Assembly: GCA_007695305.1 (NCBI GenBank)
Contig: REEA01000126.1
Location: 1-51,120 of the forward strand
Direction of reading: 5' to 3'
DNA from: Bacteroidia bacterium
GTDB taxonomy: Bacteria; Bacteroidota; Bacteroidia; Bacteroidales; UBA7960
Length of the DNA stretch: 51,120 nucleotides
Both the position numbers and the translations under genes were made by a program. The notes under the pieces are model-generated. The model saw only the letters and a program-made list of their open reading frames with translations. It was not told where the DNA came from and did not search any database. How positions within the stretch are numbered: position 1 is the stretch's first letter; each line of letters begins with the position of its first letter. Positions 29,613 through 40,991 of the stretch are shown here, piece by piece.

Positions 29613-30212
29613 TCAGCACCCGCCTATTACCGCAGTGGGGTCCATACCTTCTCTTGAAGGGGATGTTTCCGGTTGTTTCTTTGTCTCGCCACCGCCAACA
29701 GGCATAAAACGCTGATGATCCCAGCGAGCTTTGTCCTCATTATAGAAGGCCCGCGACGGGTCAAACGCTTCTACAACATATTGCATGATGGTGGAATAGG
29801 TTCCGGGAATCACCCGAACGTTTTCGATGCCTGCCCCCAGCAACAGCATCTGTGCCGCTACCGATACTTGCTCCTGGTCGGCATACAACAGGATATTATC
29901 ATACTTTTTCAGCTTTCTCTGGTGATTGCGTTGCAGCAATTCATCAAAAGGTATGTTGTGGGCTCCCGCCAGGTGGCTTTCTTCATAATAGGCATGATAA
30001 CGCAGATCGACAAGGAGGAAGCCATTGTCAATATCTTGAAGATAATCATAATACAGGCTTTCATAGGAAACAAAGCCTTCTGTCATTGCTTTTCCTGCCA
30101 CCGCCCGGTTGCTGATTTGATAATTCCGGGAAGTGATGGCACAGAAGATTACGGCGGCCATCAAAACCGTGAAAAACAAAATTGCGCTATTGTTCAGAGT
30201 TGAGTTTTTCAT
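29613..30212 (-). CDS. Membrane-anchored rhodanese-fold protein, Cys-less active loop, C-terminal IGGC
   Basis: 199 residues. An N-terminal hydrophobic anchor (about residues 9-27) places the rest in the periplasm. The rhodanese fold (about 48-150) is recognisable from FLLVDLRYHAYYEESHLAGA, NILLY and a C-terminal GAGIENVRVI strand. The catalytic Cys that should follow NILLY is Ala111, so the domain cannot act as a normal rhodanese. A polar linker (about 160-192) leads to the last residues AVIGGC, with Cys199 the final residue and the only cysteine outside the anchor. Last gene of the sulfur operon, 15 nt after the YeeE-rhodanese fusion. I infer a persulfide carrier or docking role; a structural role is possible. 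Confidence 0.85.
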   Translation of the reverse strand: MKNSTLNNSAILFFTVLMAAVIFCAITSRNYQISNRAVAGKAMTEGFVSYESLYYDYLQDIDNGFLLVDLRYHAYYEESHLAGAHNIPFDELLQRNHQRKLKKYDNILLYADQEQVSVAAQMLLLGAGIENVRVIPGTYSTIMQYVVEAFDPSRAFYNEDKARWDHQRFMPVGGGETKKQPETSPSREGMDPTAVIGGC

Positions 30213-30227
30213 TTTCTCACTTTTTTA

Positions 30228-31454
30228 TTAACAGCCACCAATTACCGGTATAATTTCTGATTCTTCCGGAGCTTTTATTCTTTGCCTTCTATCTTCTTCC
30301 TGATCAACCAGTCCGCCCTCCAGGAAAAATTGTCTGGCCTCATAGAGGAACCGTGCATTTGATCTGTCTTGCAGGTTGTAAGCGGTTGTATCGGGCATTT
30401 CAGATTCCACGAACAATTCGCTGAACATTCTGTTGAGCCCGCCATTGAGTATATACACATTGTCGTACCCGGCTCGCGCTGCTGTGAGCCAGGCCTGCAT
30501 GGCGCTGCTGCTGCCATTGCCAAAAAAGACCTTTCGGCGGTGATCCTGTTTGAAGAGGGGCCTCCATCGGCGTTGGAGAATTTCATCTGCCCGGATGTTG
30601 ATGGCCCCCGGCAGGGAGAACCGTTCAAATTCAGACTGGTCGCGGGTATCAATCAGAATAAGATCATCGCGTCCGTGTTTAATTTCCAGAATAACACGAT
30701 GGGTACTTATATAGGCATCTTCTCCATGCACTTGCGCCAGCAATTCAGGTGGTCTGGCTTCACGTATATTACTCCTTCTTTCTTCCGGAAGAAAAAGAAA
30801 AACGATCAATGCAATGACCACCAAAAACGATGGCAACATATAGGAAGGCCTTGTTTTGATTTGCTCCGGTGAAACCTTTTTTATACGGTCTTCGATCATC
30901 TGGGTGATCGTAAAGGCCATGATTGCGACCACTGCCAATGTCAGGGCAAACCAGGCCCGCGACATACCCAGGGAGTCGTAAACAAAGATATTTCCGAGAA
31001 AATGTCCGGTATAAATGGATTCGAAACTTTGGTAAAAATGCCCAAATACAAATATGCCGATAAACATGCCGATGATGAACACCATGGCGTCAGTTTTACC
31101 GGTTACGGCCGCAACGATGCCGGTTCCGGGGCAGTATCCACCCATGATAAACCCGAAACCCATGATGATTCCTCCCAGGATGGCGGAGTACAAAAAGGTT
31201 GGGTTGACGAATACAAAATCCATATCAAGCCACCCAAGGTAGCTGAAAAACAGGATGCCTGTCATGGCTGTGATGCCGGCGGTGAAAAAAACGCGCAGAA
31301 CAACAAAGTCGTATCCATAAAACACGCCGGCGAGCTTTTTCGCTGACGAGAACCCGGCTTGTTCCAGCACGTAGCCGAATCCTATACCCAGTAAAAGGGC
31401 AAAGAACAGGTTCAGCTCCGGGTTGATGATTCCTTGTGGTATGAGGGGTGCCAT
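30228..31454 (-). CDS. YeeE/YedE sulfur-transport half fused to rhodanese domain, C-terminal IGGC
   Basis: 408 residues from the ATG at 31454, which is 16 nt after the preceding gene. Residues 10-145 are a YeeE/YedE (DUF395, thiosulfate-transporter family) half with the substrate motif GFIMGGYCPGTG, Cys108. Two more membrane helices follow (about 165-187 and 205-223), then a rhodanese domain (245-345: LILIDTRDQSEFERFSLPGAINI). In place of the active-site Cys loop the chain reads VFFGNGSSS, so there is no cysteine there. The tail ends IIPVIGGC (Cys408). Cys108 and Cys408 are the only cysteines. The Lys/Arg-rich loop before the last helix suggests a periplasmic rhodanese domain, but the flank after it also has arginines, so topology is inferred. 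Confidence 0.87.
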   Translation of the reverse strand: MAPLIPQGIINPELNLFFALLLGIGFGYVLEQAGFSSAKKLAGVFYGYDFVVLRVFFTAGITAMTGILFFSYLGWLDMDFVFVNPTFLYSAILGGIIMGFGFIMGGYCPGTGIVAAVTGKTDAMVFIIGMFIGIFVFGHFYQSFESIYTGHFLGNIFVYDSLGMSRAWFALTLAVVAIMAFTITQMIEDRIKKVSPEQIKTRPSYMLPSFLVVIALIVFLFLPEERRSNIREARPPELLAQVHGEDAYISTHRVILEIKHGRDDLILIDTRDQSEFERFSLPGAINIRADEILQRRWRPLFKQDHRRKVFFGNGSSSAMQAWLTAARAGYDNVYILNGGLNRMFSELFVESEMPDTTAYNLQDRSNARFLYEARQFFLEGGLVDQEEDRRQRIKAPEESEIIPVIGGC

Positions 31455-31470
31455 AGGTGTTGTTTTTTCG

Positions 31471-31992
31471 TTAGATCCATAGTTTTCTGAAAAAATAGGC
31501 AATGAGATAGCCGGTGCCAAAAATGGCCATCATTGTCAGCATGCCTCCGGTGGAGAGCACGGCCATTCCGCTTAGGGCGGATCCGCTGGTACATCCCCTT
31601 CCAAACTGTGCGCCCAGACCGAACAGCAGACCACCGCCAAGGGCAAAAAACATGCGGGTGCGCACTGTGATATTGGGGCCGCGATCGGTGGCAAAACGCA
31701 GCCTGTTAGCCATCGCACCGCTCAGAAAGGCGCCAAGGATCAGCCCGACCACCAGGAATACCAGCCATGACCCCATGGGGTTCACTTCGGTAAAGTATTC
31801 TGCATAAAAGGGTGATTTTTCAGCATATTCGGGTGCTGCCGAGGCCACGGTGGTTACTACCACACTCCGGGCTGCACCGCTGGCTCCGAGACCCCTGCCC
31901 GCGATAACGTAAGATGCCAGCAATACCATGCCCAGTAAAAAACCGGCCAGGTAAGGGTTCATGTAATTGTTGCGAATGGTACTCATATGCAT
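31471..31992 (-). CDS. YeeE/YedE-family half transporter
   Basis: 173 residues (or 171 from the ATG at 31986). Helices lie at about 13-31, 75-92 and 113-170. The family substrate motif appears as GLGAQFGRGCTSG with Cys134, its only cysteine. Full YeeE proteins of about 350 residues carry two such halves; here the second half is the next gene, so the two products probably assemble into one pore. A soluble loop of about 40 residues (31-70) lies between helices one and two. YeeE of Spirochaeta passes thiosulfate through conserved cysteines, which suggests import of thiosulfate or sulfane sulfur. Confidence 0.88.
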   Translation of the reverse strand: MHMSTIRNNYMNPYLAGFLLGMVLLASYVIAGRGLGASGAARSVVVTTVASAAPEYAEKSPFYAEYFTEVNPMGSWLVFLVVGLILGAFLSGAMANRLRFATDRGPNITVRTRMFFALGGGLLFGLGAQFGRGCTSGSALSGMAVLSTGGMLTMMAIFGTGYLIAYFFRKLWI

Positions 31993-32020
31993 TGTTTTTA
32001 AGTTTCAATAATATTGTATG

Positions 32021-33115
32021 CTAACAACCACCAATGATGGGGACCGCCACTTCTTCCTCTTCTTTTTCAGGAAGCGCAACCTCTGAGTGATCTTTCCCCA
32101 CCAGCGGAAGCTGGTGGATGCTAGCCTCTGTAAATGAACGTGTTGATACCTGGGTAGTTAACATGGTTGTGTGAATAAAAGTATTGGCACCGTATGGCAG
32201 ATTGAGGGCATCATATCCCAGCATCCGGAGGAAGGGTGTTACGTAAGCACTGTGCTGTCCGGTAAAACAATAAACAACCACCGGTTTGTCTGTTGGCAGC
32301 GTATGTATATATTCTTCGCTGTGCAACGAGGACTTGGGTGTATACTGGATAGCCCCCGGCAAGTGACCGGCTTCGTACAGCGGCCTGGGCCAGTAGTTGA
32401 TAATATAGAAATCCTCCGGCCTTTCCATCAGTTCGTTCACCGTGATTATGTTTCCGGGAATGTGCTCCTGGAGCACCTTTTGGGCCCTGGCCCTGAGTAT
32501 TCGGTAGCCATTGGTTTCACCGGTGGCAATGGCAGGTAACTCCCCGGCGGAACGTTTGGGGTTGTCTGTGAGCTCCAGCTGCCCTTCCAGGTGGCTGCTC
32601 ATCGCCCCAAGCCAGTTGCCGGCTGCAATAGCACTGTCCCAGCTGCTAAGACCAAAGCGTAATGTCAACACATTGTCGTAACCCAACATGAGCAAAACAG
32701 AGTGAACATACGCACTTGTCATGGCATTTTCGCATACAAGAACAATGAAGTCAAAACTCCGGGGGTCGATGACCTGTTCAAAGTGGTCGAGTATATGGGA
32801 CGGCCTCACATTGATGCTGTGTTGGATGTGTCCTTCACGATATGCATCAAGAGGTCGTACATCAATGACGTGTATGTTTTGTGCGTGTAATGACCTGAAA
32901 AGATCATCGGCATTGATCAAAGCCGGCAGAGCCGGACTGTTCAGCAGGTTACCGTTCTCTTCAAGGTACTGCAGCAGGGTAGCCGTTTCTTCTTTTGAAG
33001 GTGCAGGGTCTGCAGGTTGTCGTTTGCCGGTGCAGGCCGTTGTCATCAAAATCAGAAAAATAAACAGCATATTGCTTGCTGTTTTGTATGGTATTTTTTG
33101 CCATTTGAGGTTCAT
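32021..33115 (-). CDS. Lipoprotein with two rhodanese domains and C-terminal IGGC
   Basis: 364 residues. A lipoprotein signal ends LMTTAC (lipid-bearing Cys28). Rhodanese domain 1 (about 65-165) has an active-loop cysteine, Cys128 in VLVCENAMTS. Domain 2 (about 222-320) has Cys283 in VVYCFTGQHS, the closer match to the CxxGxxS consensus. A long polar, acidic linker (KEEEEVAVP) leads to the terminal PIIGGC, Cys364. Rhodaneses move sulfane sulfur from thiosulfate or persulfides to thiols. Unlike the two other operon members, both active-site cysteines are kept, so this is the likely catalyst that loads the tails. It lies 20 nt after the cytochrome b gene and 28 nt before the YeeE half. Confidence 0.9.
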   Translation of the reverse strand: MNLKWQKIPYKTASNMLFIFLILMTTACTGKRQPADPAPSKEETATLLQYLEENGNLLNSPALPALINADDLFRSLHAQNIHVIDVRPLDAYREGHIQHSINVRPSHILDHFEQVIDPRSFDFIVLVCENAMTSAYVHSVLLMLGYDNVLTLRFGLSSWDSAIAAGNWLGAMSSHLEGQLELTDNPKRSAGELPAIATGETNGYRILRARAQKVLQEHIPGNIITVNELMERPEDFYIINYWPRPLYEAGHLPGAIQYTPKSSLHSEEYIHTLPTDKPVVVYCFTGQHSAYVTPFLRMLGYDALNLPYGANTFIHTTMLTTQVSTRSFTEASIHQLPLVGKDHSEVALPEKEEEEVAVPIIGGC

Positions 33116-33135: not shown

Positions 33136-33798
33136 TCAATCACTCTGGATGCTTTCCTTTTTTTCTTCTATGGCAACTGCTTTTTCCACTTCCTCCTCTT
33201 CAAGTTCCTCCCAGCCTGTGATCATCGCTTTCAGGTTGGAAGTGAGCGTATGCCCGGTGGTGATCAGGTAAACATGTACGATAACAAAAGCCAGCAATAT
33301 ATAGGCACCAAGGGTATGGGTATATGCGATCAGATTCAGGTTGTTGATGCCCAATGATGTGATGGCTCCATCCAGTTGATAGCGGTAAAACATGTATAAT
33401 AGTCCTGTAATAACCATAACAGGAATAAACAGGATCTTTAGCCCCAGATAAACAAGTCTTTGCATGGGATTGAGTTTACTTAGACTGCTTTTCTTGGTTG
33501 GATGGGGTGCATTGCGAAAGATACCGGTGACGTAGTATGCGATCTGTGCACGGAGGTTTTCTGCCGTGGGCAGGTATTGTCGCCATTCGCCGGTCGTAAA
33601 ATGCCAGAAGATGGTAAAAATGATCAGTACGATTAGTATCCACGCTGCATTGTTGTGCAGGTGTACAGCGTTTTCAAACCCAAACATCCGGTATGACCCG
33701 TGAATTTCAAAGCCTGTGAGCGCAAGGAACAATATCAGGAAGGCCTGTGTCCAGTGCCAGAATCTTTCGTATCGTGAGTATAAATAGACTTTTTGCAT
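33136..33798 (-). CDS. Membrane cytochrome b (thiosulfate-reductase/b561-type)
   Basis: 220 residues with four to five membrane helices (about 15-33, 50-68, 120-138, 158-182). Histidines are placed for two b-hemes (His15, His46 or His48, His66, His161, His175, His183), as in the di-heme cytochrome b subunits of thiosulfate reductase, formate dehydrogenase and Ni-Fe hydrogenase. It would pass electrons between menaquinol and the octaheme cytochrome encoded 64 nt upstream. The C-terminus is a charged cytoplasmic tail (EELEEEEVEKAVAIEEKK). Confidence 0.9.
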   Translation of the reverse strand: MQKVYLYSRYERFWHWTQAFLILFLALTGFEIHGSYRMFGFENAVHLHNNAAWILIVLIIFTIFWHFTTGEWRQYLPTAENLRAQIAYYVTGIFRNAPHPTKKSSLSKLNPMQRLVYLGLKILFIPVMVITGLLYMFYRYQLDGAITSLGINNLNLIAYTHTLGAYILLAFVIVHVYLITTGHTLTSNLKAMITGWEELEEEEVEKAVAIEEKKESIQSD

Positions 33799-33862: not shown

Positions 33863-35437
33863 TCACACCGGGATTTTTATTCTTTTTTTCCAGGCAAGAT
33901 ATCGGAGTATCGCATGGATGCAGACACCTGCACCGGCAAACAACAGCATCAGGATACCGAAGTAGTCAATGGCTGCATGGGTAGTTTGGGCCGGTATATA
34001 GATACCTTCAATGCCCGCCAGACGTCCTCCGTTCCGGGTATGACAGTCTTCACATGAAAGAGCCTGATCGGCAGGTGAAACCATGTGGTTGACCATGAGA
34101 AACATTTTGGAATCGATAAAGTCCCAATGACCTGAGAAAGGCATACCCACATATTCCATACCTGCGGCCAGGGCTTCTTCCCATTCAAGATCAACCCAAA
34201 GTGCCCCCATCCCGGGGTCTTTATCCCACAGCTTGGCCTGTATGATGGTGCGATACTCGGTGTCGTAGGGCTGGCGTCCGGTATGAATTTTTACCGGATA
34301 AATGCGAGAATTTGGATCCCCGGCCTCGCCCAAAAGGGTGTTGATATAGATCACACTGTCGTCTTCACCAATGATATCGGAGATCAGATGATGGTCTGCC
34401 GTGCCGTTGAACCAAACATAGCTTGGCACGGCATTCTGAACCCAGTGAAAGTCTCCCTTGGCAGAAGTGTATAGCAAATTACCCAGTGTGTCAATGATTT
34501 CATAGGGTTGACCGTCAATCCTGTCGGTGGCTGTCGACCAGTCCCAGTGCATTTTGGTGGGATTTACCTTGGCATATACAGGTATATGACATGTTTGGCA
34601 GGCAACGGTTACAACATGCTCATTAAGAATCCGGTCCACATGCGGCATACTGGTATGGCAGTCTTCGCAGGTTGCCCGCATGGTGTTGTCACTGGATACG
34701 CCATAATACCGGCCCAGCATCTGATGGTTGGTGGTTTTGTGACAATCGATGCAGTGCAGATTTCCACCCTCAACCGACATGTGTATGTCCACGTCACGTG
34801 AAGCGGTGAGCAGGGCATTTTCCAAATCCCCGTGTTTTACGTTATTGCCGCCGCCACCATAAAAATGGCAGTAACCGCAATTATCCATTTCCGGCCTGCC
34901 AACATTTTGTACGATGGTTTGAAAGTCAAGACCGGGAACGGGATATCCCGCACCACCGCGCTGCTTGTCATATAAGCCGCTGTTGTCGTGACAAATCAAA
35001 CAATCGATGTTCAACGGGTCGCTGTGGTCAAAAGTGTCGTCGGCCCAACCATAACCAATATGGCAACGGTTGCACGTGGCTTCATTGGATAAAATGCCGG
35101 TACAGAAATTATTGACCAGGTTCTTTTTCCCAAGGTAGGTAACACCACGTCCCTCGATGTATGCTTCCCGCTCCCAGTTCCAGTGCGCGTTTGCCAGAAC
35201 CTCATTGCCACGTTCAGTATGACAGGAAATACAGGCTTCCGTAATCTCATGGGGATTGTCAAAATCACGCTGCAGTTCCTTGTGCTTACTATGGTCCACC
35301 GACGGAATGTGCGGAATGGAATATTCTGCCCTTAATGCTTCCAAAGCAACATTGTCTTTGGAGGCATCACGGAGCATCACCGTTACTATGACAATGGGAA
35401 AAATAACCGTCAGAATAAATGTAGCGATGTTTTTCAT
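33863..35437 (-). CDS. Octaheme c-type cytochrome, tetrathionate reductase (OTR) family
   Basis: 524 residues with exactly eight CxxCH heme sites (starting at Cys69, 122, 146, 187, 229, 257, 280 and 462). The long gap before the last, and the motif CLICHDNSGLYDKQRGGAG with a lysine after the third site, match octaheme tetrathionate reductases, where a lysine ligates the active-site heme; Lys158 is the candidate. An N-terminal anchor (6-22) and a C-terminal helix (about 490-512) would fix it to the inner membrane, facing the periplasm. Substrates reduced by characterised relatives include tetrathionate, nitrite and hydroxylamine; the sulfur-handling neighbours favour a sulfur substrate. First gene of the operon. 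Confidence 0.92.
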   Translation of the reverse strand: MKNIATFILTVIFPIVIVTVMLRDASKDNVALEALRAEYSIPHIPSVDHSKHKELQRDFDNPHEITEACISCHTERGNEVLANAHWNWEREAYIEGRGVTYLGKKNLVNNFCTGILSNEATCNRCHIGYGWADDTFDHSDPLNIDCLICHDNSGLYDKQRGGAGYPVPGLDFQTIVQNVGRPEMDNCGYCHFYGGGGNNVKHGDLENALLTASRDVDIHMSVEGGNLHCIDCHKTTNHQMLGRYYGVSSDNTMRATCEDCHTSMPHVDRILNEHVVTVACQTCHIPVYAKVNPTKMHWDWSTATDRIDGQPYEIIDTLGNLLYTSAKGDFHWVQNAVPSYVWFNGTADHHLISDIIGEDDSVIYINTLLGEAGDPNSRIYPVKIHTGRQPYDTEYRTIIQAKLWDKDPGMGALWVDLEWEEALAAGMEYVGMPFSGHWDFIDSKMFLMVNHMVSPADQALSCEDCHTRNGGRLAGIEGIYIPAQTTHAAIDYFGILMLLFAGAGVCIHAILRYLAWKKRIKIPV

Positions 35438-35815: not shown

Positions 35816-37180
35816 TCAAAAACTGGCCTTTACATGCAAGCGCAGCATATTTTTGTCCTTCATGCCAACAAAAAAGTTATTGCCTTTTCCATCAAAGAAA
35901 TATCCGCCTAAAGTAATTTCCAGGTTATCGATTCCCTGCCAGGTTACTTCCGGCGTGATGAACCAGGCATAGTCACCGGAGATATTACTCCAGTCACTAA
36001 CTGTAAGCCCACCTGCCAGCGGTTGGATTTTTAATCTGTTTTGCAAAAAGCTGCGTTCGGTTTGTATGACGAAATAATCGTTGAGTTCGCCTTTGCCACT
36101 TTCGTGCAAAAAGCCCCTGATGAACTGCACATTCATATAGGTGCCGCCCGAAAATGTGTAATCGGCGCCAAGTACGTATTTCAGGTAAGGGTCCTCGTGC
36201 AAGGCAACCACCTTTTCATTTATCACCGTTTCGGCAAAATGTATGGTAATATCCGTATCAAAACCGGACTTCGGTATAAACAGTGCTGCTTCACCCCATA
36301 TGCCTATCCTTCTGATACTTCCTGAAAAGTCGCCGCCGGCAATATGATGACGGGGATACTCCATGACTGCCGAAGCTTCTGCCTCATTGGTCAAGGGGTC
36401 GATCATGATGTCCACAGCAGTGGCCAAGGGAAGCGGATCCCTGGCATATACATAGCTGAGCGAAAAATCGGTGTTCAACAGGAAGCTGCGCCACCTGAGC
36501 CCCACATTTGACCCTTCCTCCAGATTATTTTTTGGCAGGATCAGCGTGGTTTCATTTACGGGGATCAGCATTTTCGCATTTGGCAAATCCACTGGTACGG
36601 AAAGATCGAACACCCCGGCAAAAGCACCCCTGGGCATGCTTGCCGGCTGAAAACGCGGAATATAAACCATTTGCAGGGAGCTGTTGCGGGTGAAATACCA
36701 TTGCATGTTCAGGGCATCAGAACCCATTGCCCGGCCAAAATCCAAAATGTCTTCCAGGTCATAGGGGTTCAGGTTGTCGGTCGGATTGAACCGGTCGGCC
36801 GTACCCCACGCAATGCGCTGACGACCAACTGTGAGGTCCATGTTCTCAGATATAAATCCATGCACTTCCGCATAAAGCTCCCTGATATCAAGGTCCCACG
36901 GACTGACTTTTTCCTTGTTTTGCAGGTCGGTATAGGTTTCCGCTATGGAAGGACCCAGGTGTCGAAGCCAGATGTTTCCCCTGATATGCAGAGGACTGAC
37001 TCTCTTTTCCAGCGAAAGGTCTAGCCGGTTTTCGTTCCATGCCCATTCACGCTCATCCTGCAAAAACAATCTTTGATCTGATTCTACAGAACCCCGCCAC
37101 AGTAGCGGGTTTTCCTGCGATGCCAGAGGCATTGAATGAACCATAAAAACGGCAACTAAAACAAATGCAGCAGTTTTCAT
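35816..37180 (-). CDS. Outer-membrane beta-barrel protein of an RND/LolA-like module
   Basis: 454 residues. A signal peptide (to about residue 21, MPLASQ) is followed by amphipathic strands throughout, ending in an aromatic-containing strand RLHVKASF, the usual outer-membrane barrel signal. The stretch VGRQRIAWGTADRFNPTDNL resembles DUF1302-type barrels, which in other bacteria are encoded beside RND permeases and LolA-like proteins, as here. It probably forms the outer-membrane part of a lipid or small-molecule trafficking system. It lies 92 nt after the LolA-like gene, same strand. Confidence 0.78.
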   Translation of the reverse strand: MKTAAFVLVAVFMVHSMPLASQENPLLWRGSVESDQRLFLQDEREWAWNENRLDLSLEKRVSPLHIRGNIWLRHLGPSIAETYTDLQNKEKVSPWDLDIRELYAEVHGFISENMDLTVGRQRIAWGTADRFNPTDNLNPYDLEDILDFGRAMGSDALNMQWYFTRNSSLQMVYIPRFQPASMPRGAFAGVFDLSVPVDLPNAKMLIPVNETTLILPKNNLEEGSNVGLRWRSFLLNTDFSLSYVYARDPLPLATAVDIMIDPLTNEAEASAVMEYPRHHIAGGDFSGSIRRIGIWGEAALFIPKSGFDTDITIHFAETVINEKVVALHEDPYLKYVLGADYTFSGGTYMNVQFIRGFLHESGKGELNDYFVIQTERSFLQNRLKIQPLAGGLTVSDWSNISGDYAWFITPEVTWQGIDNLEITLGGYFFDGKGNNFFVGMKDKNMLRLHVKASF

Positions 37181-37272
37181 AAATCATTTATTTTGATATT
37201 TGATTGGTTCTAAGTATTTATCTGCATATTCAAAACATAAACGAGGCTTATTTAGGATTTTCCCGGATATCA

Positions 37273-38010
37273 TCAGTGCCTGGTAAGGTTCCTGACAGAA
37301 AACACACTGTCATCGAGCCCTGTATCGAAGGCCACTCCCTCAAAGATCATGCGCGTGTTGTGGTCACGCCTCAGGTTGGTCATTTTTATTTCAGCGGTGT
37401 ACCAGTAGTCTTCTTGTTTTCTGAAGGTATACTCGGCTACTTTAAAGGGCTGTCCGCCCCGGTCGAAGGATTCCATTTTCAGGGGGTAATAATGTGTTTT
37501 ATGAATGTGTGCAATGATTTTGGAGTAATCGCTTCGCATGTCGGGTAGGGGAGTCAGTTCCAAAATATATGTTTCGTCGGTCTCTTCCAGTAATTTTGGT
37601 GTAAATCTGTTCACATATTTCTCTACTTCCAGATCTTCATAGGAAAAGTCTGTCCCTGCGAACGACTGGTTTTTCACATGGGATGCGATACGTCGCTCGC
37701 GCCCGTAAGCGGGCATATACAAATACATTACGTCATCGGGAAGAGACAGGAAGGCGATGCCGGCCTCGGCGGCAGGTGCGGTAAAGCGAAACAACCGCTT
37801 GCTTGACCCTTTTTGCCAAACTTGCGCTTCTCTGACGCGTTCGTTTCCGTTCCTGTCTGTCAGGATCATGCGTATGTTACTGGTTTGATCTTCGCCGGCA
37901 AACAAAACCTCATCCATTTCCCTGAGTATGGTGCCGGCATCTTCAGCAAAGGTTGTGTTTGCCAAAAAACTTGTAAACAATAGGGTGATCATGATTTTCA
38001 GTGTTTTCAT
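37273..38010 (-). CDS. LolA-like periplasmic protein (outer membrane lipoprotein-sorting family)
   Basis: 245 residues. The signal peptide MKTLKIMITLLFTSFLANT ends near TFAED. The mature domain is of the half-barrel LolA/LolB fold class, recognised from the succession RNGNERVREAQVWQKGSSKRLFRF, PDDVMYLYMPAYGR and YYPLKMESF (shown in parts; the family is annotated as outer membrane lipoprotein-sorting protein). Members paired with RND permeases are thought to carry lipophilic cargo across the periplasm. It sits between the RND gene (41 nt) and the barrel gene. Confidence 0.85.
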   Translation of the reverse strand: MKTLKIMITLLFTSFLANTTFAEDAGTILREMDEVLFAGEDQTSNIRMILTDRNGNERVREAQVWQKGSSKRLFRFTAPAAEAGIAFLSLPDDVMYLYMPAYGRERRIASHVKNQSFAGTDFSYEDLEVEKYVNRFTPKLLEETDETYILELTPLPDMRSDYSKIIAHIHKTHYYPLKMESFDRGGQPFKVAEYTFRKQEDYWYTAEIKMTNLRRDHNTRMIFEGVAFDTGLDDSVFSVRNLTRH

Positions 38011-38051
38011 ATTCGTTCGTTTTTAAGATGTATGTTTTTCATGATGAAGGA

Positions 38052-40295
38052 TTATTTGTTTCCCTCTTTTCGCCAAAATACCATCGGCAGGATGGTCAGT
38101 GTGGCCATACCGGATGTTAGCATGGTGATGGCGATCAAAAACCCAAACCGTTGCAGCGGAACAAGGTTGGAGAATACGAGCATGGCAAAACCGGCACTCA
38201 CCGCGATCATGTTGATAAAAATGGCTTTTCCGCTGACTCGGATTGCTTTTTCCAGGCTTTCCTTTACCCCCAGGCCTTCATTTTCACCTTCCCCAAAGCG
38301 GCTTATAAAATGAATGGAGTAGTCGATGCCAATGCCGATGGTAACACTGCCGCTGAGCACGGTGGCAATGTCAAGCGGTACTCCTGTAATACCCATGGTG
38401 CCAAACAGCACAATCAGCGTGACCCCGATGGGGATAATAGCCACCAGGCCCCTGTTAGCTGACCTCAGCAGTAAACTGGTCATCACCATCACCAAAATCA
38501 TGGCAATGATCAGGCTGTATGTCTGGCTGCTGATGATGCTGTCGTCAAGCCGTTTCAGCATCAGCGGAATCCCGGTAAAGGCCAGCTTGTGTTTCTCGTT
38601 GCTGTTGTTCTGTGCATATTCGGTAAAGCTGGTTTCTATTTCTCTCAGGACATCCAGCTCTTTGGATGTGACATATGCCTGTATGACCCCCTCTTCTAAT
38701 CCGGGGCTCACCAGTTGTTCCATTATTTCCTGTCCATCCAGCAAAAACCAGAGCTGTGCAATTTTGTATGGTTCATCAGGGATGATCTCCCCTTCGCCCA
38801 TCACATCATTCATCTGTTTGATAAGGTCTGCTACCGACTGGCTGTATGGGATATATGGGAATTGCTGCATGAAGTTTTGCGCGTCTTCCATCGCCCGGAG
38901 CACTTCAGGGTCTTGCACATTGCCTTGTATGTGCAGATAAAGTGGGGTGCTGCCGTTGAATTTTTCTTTCAGCAGCTCTTCCCCTTTTTTCACCATGCTG
39001 TCGTCCCTGAAATAATCGATGATGTCAACCCGCCGCTCAATGCGCGTCATGCCCCAAACACTTATCATGACAATGGCGAGCCAGATGGTGAGCAGCTTTC
39101 CCCGGTGATCAAACACCATCATGGATAACTTTGCCGGGATCTTGTCAAACAGGGTGGGGGGCTTCGGGTGTTTTGGGGCTTTCAGGGGCTTTTCAAAAAC
39201 CGCCAGTAAGGCAGGCACAAAACTGATGGTAAGCAAAAGCGCAAAGAGAATGCCAATGGCGGAAAAAACGCCGAATTCCCTGATCATCATCAGATAAGAT
39301 CCGGCAATGAAAGAAAGAAACCCAAACATGGTTGTTATGGAAGCCAAAATCACCGGTGCCACAATGTATGTGACGCCCCTCTTTAGTGCACCTTCTGGAT
39401 TTACAGATTGCTCTGCCATGGCAGCGTTTACCACATGAATGGCATAAGCGCTTCCCACAGCCAGCAATATTACAGGGATGATGTTTGTCATCATGGTGAT
39501 TTGGTATCCCAACATGGCAATCAAACCCATGGTCCAAACAACCGCGATCAACACGGTTAGCATGGGTAGGATCAATCCCCGCGCGTTGCGGAAGCCCGCC
39601 AGCAAAACCAGGCTGATGATGATGAAGGTGAGCGGGGCAATAAACCGGATATCGTGAAGGATCGTGCGGCTCAGTTCCAGCAAGGTAACCGGCATCCCGC
39701 CATAATGGATGTTCCCCTCAAAAGGAAATCCCTGAAGCTTCTCCATGATCATCTCTACCACCCCGGCACGGTTAACACCGGTCAGTATTTTACCTATAAC
39801 GAGGGTAGCCATGGCATCCTCAGAAACAAGGTTGCCACGGTACATATCTTTTGAAAGGGTATATCTTTTCAGCGAATCCAAAACTACCGGATCCTGCGGT
39901 ATGTCATACTCATCAATCAGTCTGCCCATCTCGATACCCCAATCAGAACCCTTGATATCCAACACATTGGTCAGGCTGGTAACATATCCGATGCCGGGTG
40001 TCGATCGAATGCTGTCTGTTACCTGCCTGATGATGTCAAGCGTTCCGGGGTCAAAAACGTATTGCCCCTCAAGACCAACGATCACCATCTCATTGCCGCC
40101 ATAAGTATCGCCGATCCGGTTGAATAAAGCGGCCGCAGGATCATCATCCGGAAGATAGCTCATCACATCTGCATTCACCTCCAGGTCTTTCAGAAAATAA
40201 GCCATCAAAACAGTAATCATTAATACGGATACAATTACCCAATACCGGAATCGGATCACCCATCCTGCATATTTTTCCATAAAACCATTCCGCAT
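38052..40295 (-). CDS. RND-superfamily (MMPL-type) transporter
   Basis: 747 residues with the doubled six-helix plan of the family: helix 1 (about 17-35), a periplasmic domain (40-220), five helices (about 225-365), then the same again from about 400. The second half has the hallmark GIGIDYSIHFISRF. It is the short, two-domain MMPL/HpnN-like kind that typically moves lipids or hydrophobic compounds using the proton gradient, not the trimeric AcrB drug pump, and no membrane-fusion gene is present. It may start at 40295 or at the ATG at 40280. First structural gene after the TetR regulator. Confidence 0.9.
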   Translation of the reverse strand: MRNGFMEKYAGWVIRFRYWVIVSVLMITVLMAYFLKDLEVNADVMSYLPDDDPAAALFNRIGDTYGGNEMVIVGLEGQYVFDPGTLDIIRQVTDSIRSTPGIGYVTSLTNVLDIKGSDWGIEMGRLIDEYDIPQDPVVLDSLKRYTLSKDMYRGNLVSEDAMATLVIGKILTGVNRAGVVEMIMEKLQGFPFEGNIHYGGMPVTLLELSRTILHDIRFIAPLTFIIISLVLLAGFRNARGLILPMLTVLIAVVWTMGLIAMLGYQITMMTNIIPVILLAVGSAYAIHVVNAAMAEQSVNPEGALKRGVTYIVAPVILASITTMFGFLSFIAGSYLMMIREFGVFSAIGILFALLLTISFVPALLAVFEKPLKAPKHPKPPTLFDKIPAKLSMMVFDHRGKLLTIWLAIVMISVWGMTRIERRVDIIDYFRDDSMVKKGEELLKEKFNGSTPLYLHIQGNVQDPEVLRAMEDAQNFMQQFPYIPYSQSVADLIKQMNDVMGEGEIIPDEPYKIAQLWFLLDGQEIMEQLVSPGLEEGVIQAYVTSKELDVLREIETSFTEYAQNNSNEKHKLAFTGIPLMLKRLDDSIISSQTYSLIIAMILVMVMTSLLLRSANRGLVAIIPIGVTLIVLFGTMGITGVPLDIATVLSGSVTIGIGIDYSIHFISRFGEGENEGLGVKESLEKAIRVSGKAIFINMIAVSAGFAMLVFSNLVPLQRFGFLIAITMLTSGMATLTILPMVFWRKEGNK

Positions 40296-40418
40296 AACCC
40301 TGTTGTTATTTTAAAATCCAATACACACAGTGTTTTTTTATGGTCAACCGACTATGCTTTTAACCATCATCATATTGAGAACAACAATGCTTTTCCCGGC
40401 ATTTCAGACGCAGTGATG

Positions 40419-40991
40419 TCATTTTTTCCGCTTGATTCCGTTGTATAAAGTGCTGATCAGCGGATCAATGAGCCGATCATGGTCAAAGTCGCTGCGTCCC
40501 ATAAAAATGGGAAGCTCAAAGCCTTTTGTGGCCAGCACAATGGCATCCGCCACCAGCTGAGTGTCAGGAATGTCGAACGTCCCTTTCTCATTACCCTCGT
40601 CAAGTATGGTTTTGATCAGCTGCGTTTCCCTGGCATCATATTCGATCCGCAGGTTCTCCACCAGTCCCATCTTGTTTAACAGATCATGCCGCAGCGCATC
40701 ATAATACATGGTAAGCTCTTTGATACCATTCATGCGGATGTGCATATACTGCCGAAGCTTTTCATCGGGCGGAATATCAGCACGCACCAGCTTTTCAAGG
40801 TTTTCAGCCAGCACCTCCACCTCTGTGTCAATCACTGCTTTAAACACTTCTTCCTTGCTGGTGAAATAGCTGTATATGGTGCGCCGCCCCTGGCGAGCTG
40901 CCATGGCAATATCGGCCATGGATGCCTTGCTGAAGCCGAAGCGCTCGAAAACTTTACGGGCACCAAGCAATATGTTTTCTCTTGTTGTCAT
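40419..40991 (-). CDS. TetR-family transcriptional regulator
   Basis: 190 residues. The N-terminal helix-turn-helix (about 6-52) reads ARKVFERFGFSKASMADIA then RRTIYSYFTSKEEVF, the standard TetR recognition region. The helical ligand domain follows. The gene heads the RND/LolA-like/barrel cluster on the same strand, so it probably represses that cluster and itself. A perfect 8-bp inverted repeat overlaps its own -7 box (41043-41067) and is the likely operator. The ligand is unknown; fatty-acid-like effectors are common for regulators beside MMPL transporters. Confidence 0.92.
   Translation of the reverse strand: MTTRENILLGARKVFERFGFSKASMADIAMAARQGRRTIYSYFTSKEEVFKAVIDTEVEVLAENLEKLVRADIPPDEKLRQYMHIRMNGIKELTMYYDALRHDLLNKMGLVENLRIEYDARETQLIKTILDEGNEKGTFDIPDTQLVADAIVLATKGFELPIFMGRSDFDHDRLIDPLISTLYNGIKRKK

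Follow-up and report, generated by a model that had tools for sequence, protein, structure and literature searches.

Conserved C-terminal Gly-Gly-Cys tails on rhodanese-like proteins encoded with a split YeeE/YedE transporter in Bacteroidota: candidate arms of a periplasmic sulfur carrier

Organization of the operon

The window analysed here is a 51,120-nt stretch of the genome of a Bacteroidia bacterium (GenBank assembly GCA_007695305.1, contig REEA01000126.1, positions 1 to 51,120), over the whole of which its coordinates are numbered. It carries an operon of six genes, all on the minus strand, encoding, from 5′ to 3′, an octaheme cytochrome, a cytochrome b, a rhodanese protein (P3), one half of a split YeeE/YedE transporter (YeeB), a second half fused to a rhodanese domain (P2), and a membrane-anchored rhodanese protein (P1); the successive intergenic gaps, from the octaheme gene to P1, are 64, 20, 28, 16 and 15 bases. 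P1, P2 and P3 end in AVIGGC, PVIGGC and PIIGGC, followed by the stops TGA, TAA and TAG, respectively. An initial annotation of this DNA had described these ends and their differing codons, and the open reading frames (ORFs) of the window agree with it throughout. Judging by the alignments, the part conserved is Gly-Gly-Cys, placed exactly at the C-terminus; the isoleucine is lineage-specific. The cysteine is probably a working sulfur-binding residue. The features concerned are as follows.

29613..30212, minus strand: P1, an N-terminal membrane anchor, one rhodanese domain without the active-site Cys and a tail of ~30 residues, ending VIGGC
P1 cysteines (residue count): C24, within the anchor, and C199, at the tail end; no others
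29616..29627, minus strand: Ile-Gly-Gly-Cys codons of the P1 tail, residues 196-199
29880..29882, minus strand: P1 residue 111, Ala at the canonical rhodanese Cys column of the alignment
30228..31454, minus strand: P2, a YeeE/YedE half (PF04143), then an extra transmembrane helix, then a rhodanese domain without the active-site Cys, ending VIGGC
P2 cysteines (residue count): C108, in the YeeE part, and C408, at the tail end; no others
30231..30242, minus strand: Ile-Gly-Gly-Cys codons of the P2 tail, residues 405-408
30519..30521, minus strand: P2 residue 312, Gly at the canonical rhodanese Cys column of the alignment
31131..31133, minus strand: P2 Cys108, within GGYCPGT
31471..31992, minus strand: YeeB, the other half of the split YeeE/YedE transporter (domain scan)
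31591-31593, minus strand: YeeB Cys134, within GRGCTSG
32021..33115, minus strand: P3, a probable lipoprotein with two rhodanese domains that keep the active-site Cys128 and Cys283, ending PIIGGC
P3 further cysteines: lipobox Cys28, judged by eye, and C364, at the tail end
32024..32035, minus strand: Ile-Gly-Gly-Cys codons of the P3 tail, residues 361-364
33136..33798, minus strand: cytochrome b561-type membrane subunit (PF01292; domain scan)
33863..35437, minus strand: octaheme c-type cytochrome of the tetrathionate reductase family TIGR04315 (542 bits, eight CXXCH motifs)

In a Pfam scan, the rhodanese domain PF00581 matches P1, P2 and P3 with 39, 52 and 91 bits, respectively (cut-off 22.2), and PF04143 matches the two YeeE halves with 50 and 65 bits (cut-off 27); at an E-value of 0.001, the scan of the three tailed proteins returned rhodanese, Sulf_transp and a weak DUF6691 match in P2, and nothing else. 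The octaheme match to TIGR04315, well above the cut-off of 375 bits, spans positions 1-440 of 440. The P3 lipobox and a basic loop preceding the last P2 helix, both judged by eye, suggest that the rhodanese domains and their tails are periplasmic.

Rarity of the tail

Within the 2.93 Mb genome, a pattern of [VIM]GGC followed by T-purine-purine has six matches: P1, P2 and P3, two that read TGG, and one that ends a 48-codon frame. The simpler pattern of GGC followed by TAA or TGA matches 28 times, and the open frames of more than 200 residues among these are P1 and P2 alone, the next longest being 130 and 118 residues. Across the 87 related loci described below, an end in GGC (with up to three residues after it) occurs in six of 6,729 other closed ORFs of at least 60 residues, two of which are relatives missed earlier; there was none among the neighbouring octaheme (57), cytochrome b (59), YeeB (87) and lone YeeA (21) ORFs. 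The concern voiced in the initial annotation, that the motif might be common on unrelated proteins, is thus not borne out.

Nor is the tail a common rhodanese trait. Ten operon genomes gave 89 matches to the rhodanese domain, for 30 of which loci were retrieved (two of the loci being one protein); six of the 30 have a Cys in the last three residues. Four of the six are of the operon type, one (L232, the gene of locus L290) adjoins an octaheme cytochrome, and one (L257, the gene of locus L291) has another setting. The last of these (L291, 6201-6662) is a rhodanese with a pocket Cys and a Cys-rich end, CDTEGGCC, which is perhaps metal-binding; no YeeE/octaheme operon was seen on that stretch. 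The window genome also encodes another rhodanese protein (L001, 190-1479), with three domains and the end GVPKK, its gene being followed by a methyltransferase-like one; the two are possibly an ergothioneine pair.

Of the 32 codon triplets possible for GGC, 29 occur among the 192 exact tails of the 87 loci, with all three stops, so that synonymous change has come close to saturation there. These counts, together with the rarity of the motif elsewhere, lead us to reject a DNA repeat, as the initial annotation did, and a chance origin.

Conservation across relatives

The first set of 87 loci comprises the window, the 80 best of 287 P2 relatives found in one scan of genome contigs, and six earlier loci; these loci are mutually related, some being near copies, and are therefore not independent. 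Among ORFs assigned by profile, 58 of 63 P1-type, 87 of 97 P2-type and 47 of 61 P3-type end exactly in GGC, and a further three, three and four, respectively, have one to three residues after it. An alignment of 51 of the 62 listed P1 sequences, 19-82% identical to that of the window, has G128 and G197-G198-C199 as its only invariant columns; since the sequences were selected (L043, L044, L056, L065, L067, L074, L075, L083, L093, L105 and L112 were left out, and L037 is not in the list of 62), the invariance holds for the selected set. Similarly, GGC is invariant and the linker variable in 31 chosen P2 fusions out of 67 fusion ORFs, a choice that left out the GGC-less L043, L044 and L047.

A second set was drawn separately and evenly from the phylum, with a profile match in 65 of 395 genomes. 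From the 60 loci fetched first, 59 YeeE-linked rhodaneses were scored; three loci added later gave two tailed proteins and one frameshifted, and the window genome and G392 were not new to the analysis. All 59 scored rhodaneses have a Cys within the last two residues, the ends being GGC (30), GGC plus one residue (7), EGC (15), MGC (4), DGC (1) and GGLCS (2). The cysteine is therefore near-universal, and Gly-Gly is typical of the octaheme operons and less so of others. An IGGC tail family, the term used in the initial annotation, proves too narrow, as the residue before GGC varies freely; the wider rule, as far as the aligned relatives indicate, is GGC, or xGC, at the protein end. Locus L294 was ruled out as a tail-less case when its tail was found in another frame. 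On plasmids, two partial YeeE matches were found and nothing more, and on viral contigs there was no confirmed match.

Locus L209 (7-5157), a PhsA-type operon, went uncounted because no YeeE half was recognised in it: the NrfD gene is followed immediately by those of two rhodaneses, each with the end EEGGC. Its contig starts there, so the YeeE gene may lie elsewhere.

The position of the Cys, at or beside the very end of the protein, would also suit a modification or processing signal, such as lipidation or C-terminal anchoring. We regard this as quite improbable: membrane attachment is already provided by transmembrane helices in P1 and P2 and, judged by eye, by a lipobox in P3, some relatives carry one residue beyond the Cys, and the tails show no hydrophobic segment with a basic end, which sorting signals carry.

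Loss of the pocket cysteine

A Cys in the active-site loop, the mark of a catalytic rhodanese, is present in P3 of the window and absent from its P1 and P2. This difference holds among the relatives. At the canonical column, P2-type sequences have Ser (53), Gly (29), Ala (12) or Asp (1), with Cys in none of the 95, and P1-type sequences have Ala, Gly or Ser in 60 of 62 cases and Cys in two; P3-type proteins keep the pocket Cys in 55 of 60 first domains and 57 of 60 second domains. In the second draw, Cys occupies the canonical column in one of 59 rhodaneses and occurs anywhere in the loop in two of 59. With the pocket Cys gone, that of the tail is the sole Cys in the soluble part of both P1 and P2 of the window.

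AlphaFold models were obtained for P1 and P2. In P1, the rhodanese fold is predicted to be intact: residues 41-160 have ten-residue mean predicted local distance difference test (pLDDT) values of at least 84, and the model resembles solved rhodaneses. The P1 tail (171-199) has ten-residue means of 47-55 and the P2 tail (386-408) a confidence below 50, values consistent with flexible linkers. The membrane half of P2 was modelled poorly (mean pLDDT 66.7), so no inference on the pore was drawn from it.

The rhodanese domains of P1 and P2 are related (~30 bits), and a single tail may therefore have been duplicated with its domain, to persist in the paralogues as a functionless relic. This we judge very improbable, given that GGC stays constant while the linkers vary and that the synonymous codons are nearly saturated. 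Moreover, a different rhodanese likewise ends in GGC: in L290, an octaheme operon in which no YeeE is visible (the contig ends), an apparent lipoprotein with a pocket Cys carries this end and adjoins the octaheme cytochrome.

Redox partners and YeeE halves

The link of the tails to rhodanese/YeeE/octaheme operons, anticipated in the initial annotation, holds, and a second redox partner has to be added. Within the 87 loci, 54 have the octaheme enzyme only, 17 only a PhsA-like molybdoenzyme with iron-sulfur (FeS) and NrfD subunits, two have both and 14 neither (11 of these 14 being shorter than 10 kb); the octaheme enzyme is thus present in 56 loci and the PhsA-like enzyme in 19. Two PhsA-like proteins that were scanned reach 466 and 490 bits, short of the 694-bit PhsA cut-off, and so are relatives rather than proven PhsA. 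In L292, a MerR-type regulator (2311-2793) directly precedes the PhsA-like gene, with look-alike ORFs in L293 and L294. All 148 YeeA halves examined contain a CPGT motif, and all 146 YeeB halves have a Cys at the alignment column of Cys134.

Some PhsA-type loci hold an ExtM-like 12-heme cytochrome (8 of the 17 PhsA-only loci) or an ExtI-like porin (3 of 17), families tied to selenite and tellurite reduction, and extI has a reported role in selenite reduction in Geobacter (PMC5877670). The tail thiol might then dock a metal or heme, or handle selenium, instead of carrying sulfane sulfur. We think this doubtful: the scores fall far below the family cut-offs (in L109, 246 bits for ExtM against 800, and 56 bits for ExtI against 150), and ExtM- or ExtI-like matches occur in none of the 54 octaheme-only loci. 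A lone Cys is, in addition, a poor metal site.

A single tailed protein is found in eleven octaheme loci of the first set (L086, L094-L098, L100, L101, L103, L108 and L110; some of the contigs are short), and in the second draw all 35 octaheme loci have one rhodanese-like ORF only, at the YeeE half. An arrangement with one such protein, at the YeeE half, may be the minimal set. The octaheme family occurs in 56 of 390 genomes of the phylum, 40 of which also match the YeeE-rhodanese profile; 14 of the remaining 16 belong to one family, f85.

Two near-identical stretches (L043, 8414-11717, and L044, 3016-6319) have lost the P2 and P3 tails and kept that of P1. The octaheme and cytochrome b genes are absent from L043 between the porin and P3, and L044 has no octaheme or cytochrome b match. 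This suggests that the tails serve the redox enzyme; given the near-identity, the joint loss counts as a single case.

Upstream of the octaheme gene of the window, on the same strand (35816-40991), are genes for a DUF1302 porin, a LolA-like protein and an MMPL protein, assigned by domain scan, and a TetR-like protein, assigned by eye. By eye, the porin/LolA-like/MMPL order recurs in L035 and L043.

Likeness of the tails within an operon

The resemblance of tails within one operon was tested, with 2,000 shuffles, on 35 representatives (of 58), each drawn from a different cluster at 60% identity; 32 of them fall in clades of at least two, and the stratum without the octaheme enzyme combines PhsA loci with unassigned ones. 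Within operons, P1 and P2 are alike at residues −10 to −4, with z-scores of 6.8 over all 35, 5.1 within operon type and 4.5 within clades, and none of the shuffles reaches the observed likeness. For 141 aligned columns of the rhodanese domains, the corresponding values are 1.6, 0.6 and 1.0; over all 35, 107 of the 2,000 shuffles reach 1.6, so there may be a weak domain signal. An earlier test of the three pairings agrees, with an excess of likeness in the linker (−20 to −10) for P1-P2 and P1-P3 (0 of 5,000 shuffles) and a weak one for P2-P3 (0.038). We read the likeness of the tail sequences as an adaptation to a shared partner, the alternative being local gene conversion of the tail.

Docking to a common partner would predict the same likeness, and the tail Cys could accordingly be structural, holding P1, P2 and P3 round the YeeE pore and the redox enzyme through intermolecular disulfides or docking free of chemistry; the single Cys per tail and the presence of two or three tailed proteins in 68 operons fit such a role. 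It is nevertheless an unlikely explanation, because the tail is kept where it has no tailed neighbour, in the eleven first-set loci and 35 second-draw loci with a lone tailed or rhodanese-like protein, and because it leaves the loss of the pocket Cys unexplained.

Proposed mechanism

From the tail and its conservation, the loss of the pocket Cys, the operon partners and the co-variation of the P1, P2 and P3 tails, all read from sequence, we consider it probable that the C-terminal GGC presents the working sulfur-binding Cys of a periplasmic sulfur carrier, a SoxY-like arm mounted on a pseudo-rhodanese. The rhodanese domain of P1 and P2, having lost its catalytic Cys, would serve as a holder, with the thiol at the tip of a flexible arm of ~30 residues. 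The sulfane sulfur loaded onto the arm would take the form of a persulfide or thiosulfonate; its source would probably be polysulfide, thiosulfate or tetrathionate, and in the operon of the window it would perhaps arrive via P3, with its two active-site cysteines. Once loaded, the arm would offer the sulfur to the operon's periplasmic redox partner, either the octaheme cytochrome plus cytochrome b or the PhsA/FeS/NrfD enzyme, and also to the split YeeE channel, one half of which is part of P2. By analogy with known carriers, the arm most likely relays sulfane sulfur among the active rhodanese (where present), the redox enzyme and the channel, and we lean towards a reductive redox step, as when Sud feeds polysulfide reductase, over an oxidative one, as with SoxY. 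What we infer is the load of sulfur, the proteins that exchange it, and the direction.

The initial annotation had already proposed persulfide-bearing swinging arms, a reading that is borne out in part. Two features absent from it, the missing pocket Cys of P1 and P2 and the SoxY precedent of a GGCGG arm, favour an arm that carries sulfur; both the carriage itself and its direction stay inferences.

Several observations weigh against the carrier as proposed. The tail is not kept everywhere: in P1-type proteins, L037 is tail-less and L056 ends AGC; in the P2 type, L043, L044 and the second copy of L028 are tail-less, L031, L032 and L047 have GC without GGC, and a further exception (L031, 1294-2169) is a profile match outside the operon; in the P3 type, L039, L043, L044, L027 (two), L109 (two), L029, the second copy of L060 and L032 (a weak match) are tail-less. 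Among P3-like proteins of PhsA-only loci, the tail is missing from five of seven. The initial annotation had singled out tail-less homologous operons, or an unconserved Cys, as fatal to its proposal; such exceptions occur, and the proposal survives them. Nor are the glycines absolute, as the EGC, MGC, DGC and GGLCS ends (15, 4, 1 and 2 of 59) illustrate. The loci with a single rhodanese indicate that P3 and P1 are not universal and that neither is essential to the mechanism. Moreover, of 25 octaheme clusters without an adjacent YeeE-rhodanese, 20 were inspected (12 of them from f85), and none has a GC-tailed rhodanese within 4.5 kb, two holding an unrelated ORF with GC near its end; the tail thus goes with the YeeE-rhodanese module, and as a general trait of the octaheme enzyme it is ruled out. 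The genome of the window gave no PF01206 match for TusA, with which YeeE usually works in the cytoplasm (the control matched in 11 of 14 genomes), and the model therefore gives no account of what becomes of imported sulfur. Finally, a lone conserved thiol would equally suit a disulfide or metal role.

A broader proposal, which we advance only tentatively, is that in these carriers the catalytic Cys has moved from the rhodanese pocket to the tip of an arm, that one arm serves an active rhodanese, the YeeE channel and a multi-heme or molybdenum enzyme, and that protein-bound sulfur, rather than free tetrathionate or thiosulfate, is the real substrate of that enzyme. This would give a concrete hypothesis as to what octaheme tetrathionate reductase acts on in vivo. 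If the carrier is real, a brief C-terminal tag able to make a sulfur carrier of an inactive fold would be a simple tool-kit part, the occurrence of pseudo-rhodaneses next to sulfur transporters would be explained, and sulfur import and respiration would be linked in Bacteroidota, almost all of those examined being without SoxY.

Comparison with known systems

Two families with comparable ends differ from P1, P2 and P3 in fold. ThiS and MoaD have a beta-grasp fold with a terminal Gly-Gly, whereas P1, P2 and P3 have a rhodanese fold and Cys as the terminal residue; DsrC carries its C-terminal cysteines on a DsrC fold, and no DsrC-type match is among the families listed at an E-value of 0.001. 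The open-licence texts searched on rhodanese, SoxY, YeeE and octaheme systems hold, in the parts consulted, no account of such tails.

In Sud, the single catalytic Cys sits in the rhodanese pocket, whereas P1 and P2 have no pocket Cys and carry theirs on the tail. PDB entry 1qxn, listed as sulfide dehydrogenase and which we take to be Sud, matches the P1 profile at 5.3e-6. Sud of Wolinella is periplasmic and hands sulfur to polysulfide reductase (PMC2754497); it resembles the proteins described here in its predicted location, in having one functional Cys and, given the PhsA-like enzyme of the 19 loci, in its type of partner.

Split YedE1E2 has been reported to import, and not to export, zero-valent sulfur, with one Cys needed in each half (PMC10812762). 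The operons described here likewise encode two half transporters, each with a conserved Cys, and differ from YedE1E2/PmpAB in that one half is fused to, or lies before, a tailed pseudo-rhodanese; the YeeE halves of the window do not reach the NCBIfam cut-offs for TsuA and YedE. In a sulfur disproportionator, secreted rhodaneses beside YeeE and Psr were assumed to pass sulfur on (PMC12142623), and the passage of sulfur from the SoxY Cys to the Cys of the SoxT channel has been called conceivable, yet questioned on account of the distances (PMC11582611).

The octaheme protein of the window, known from sequence, belongs to the same family (TIGR04315) as the Shewanella-type octaheme tetrathionate reductase, and differs in that its gene shares an operon with cytochrome b, rhodaneses and YeeE. 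The substrates named for the enzyme are tetrathionate, nitrite and hydroxylamine, and in lucinid symbionts soxY adjoins the otr gene (PMC11237559). The Geobacter ext cluster, with ExtH (a rhodanese lipoprotein), ExtI (a porin) and ExtM (a cytochrome), is implicated through extI in selenite reduction (PMC5877670); the L109 operon similarly adjoins rhodaneses, an ExtI-like porin and a 12-heme ExtM-like cytochrome, with the differences that its scores lie below the cut-offs and that YeeE goes unmentioned in the main texts on the ext cluster.

A SoxY family match occurs in 47 of 390 genomes of the phylum (45 over the cut-off) and, among the 65 YeeE-rhodanese genomes, in G414 (over the cut-off) and G601 (below it). 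A search of 22 operon-bearing genomes, itself without a control match, found no SoxY, and the operon is thus ruled out, on the evidence of SoxY, as a disguised Sox system, although G414 has both. Of 30 SoxY loci of the phylum, 18 have an ORF with the end VTIGGCGG and two have one with VSVGGCG; the other ten (L278, L280 and L282-L289, the first being that of G414) have no ORF of 100-320 residues with GGC in its last 12. SoxY differs from P1, P2 and P3 in its domain, PF13501, which does not match these rhodanese-fold proteins, and in its trailing Gly-Gly, as the window proteins and the exact-GGC relatives end at the Cys. The Cys of its C-terminal GGCGG arm binds the sulfur substrate (PMC6067878), and it is in this shared feature, a Cys within a C-terminal Gly-Gly-Cys, that SoxY is, by analogy, the closest precedent for the tails.

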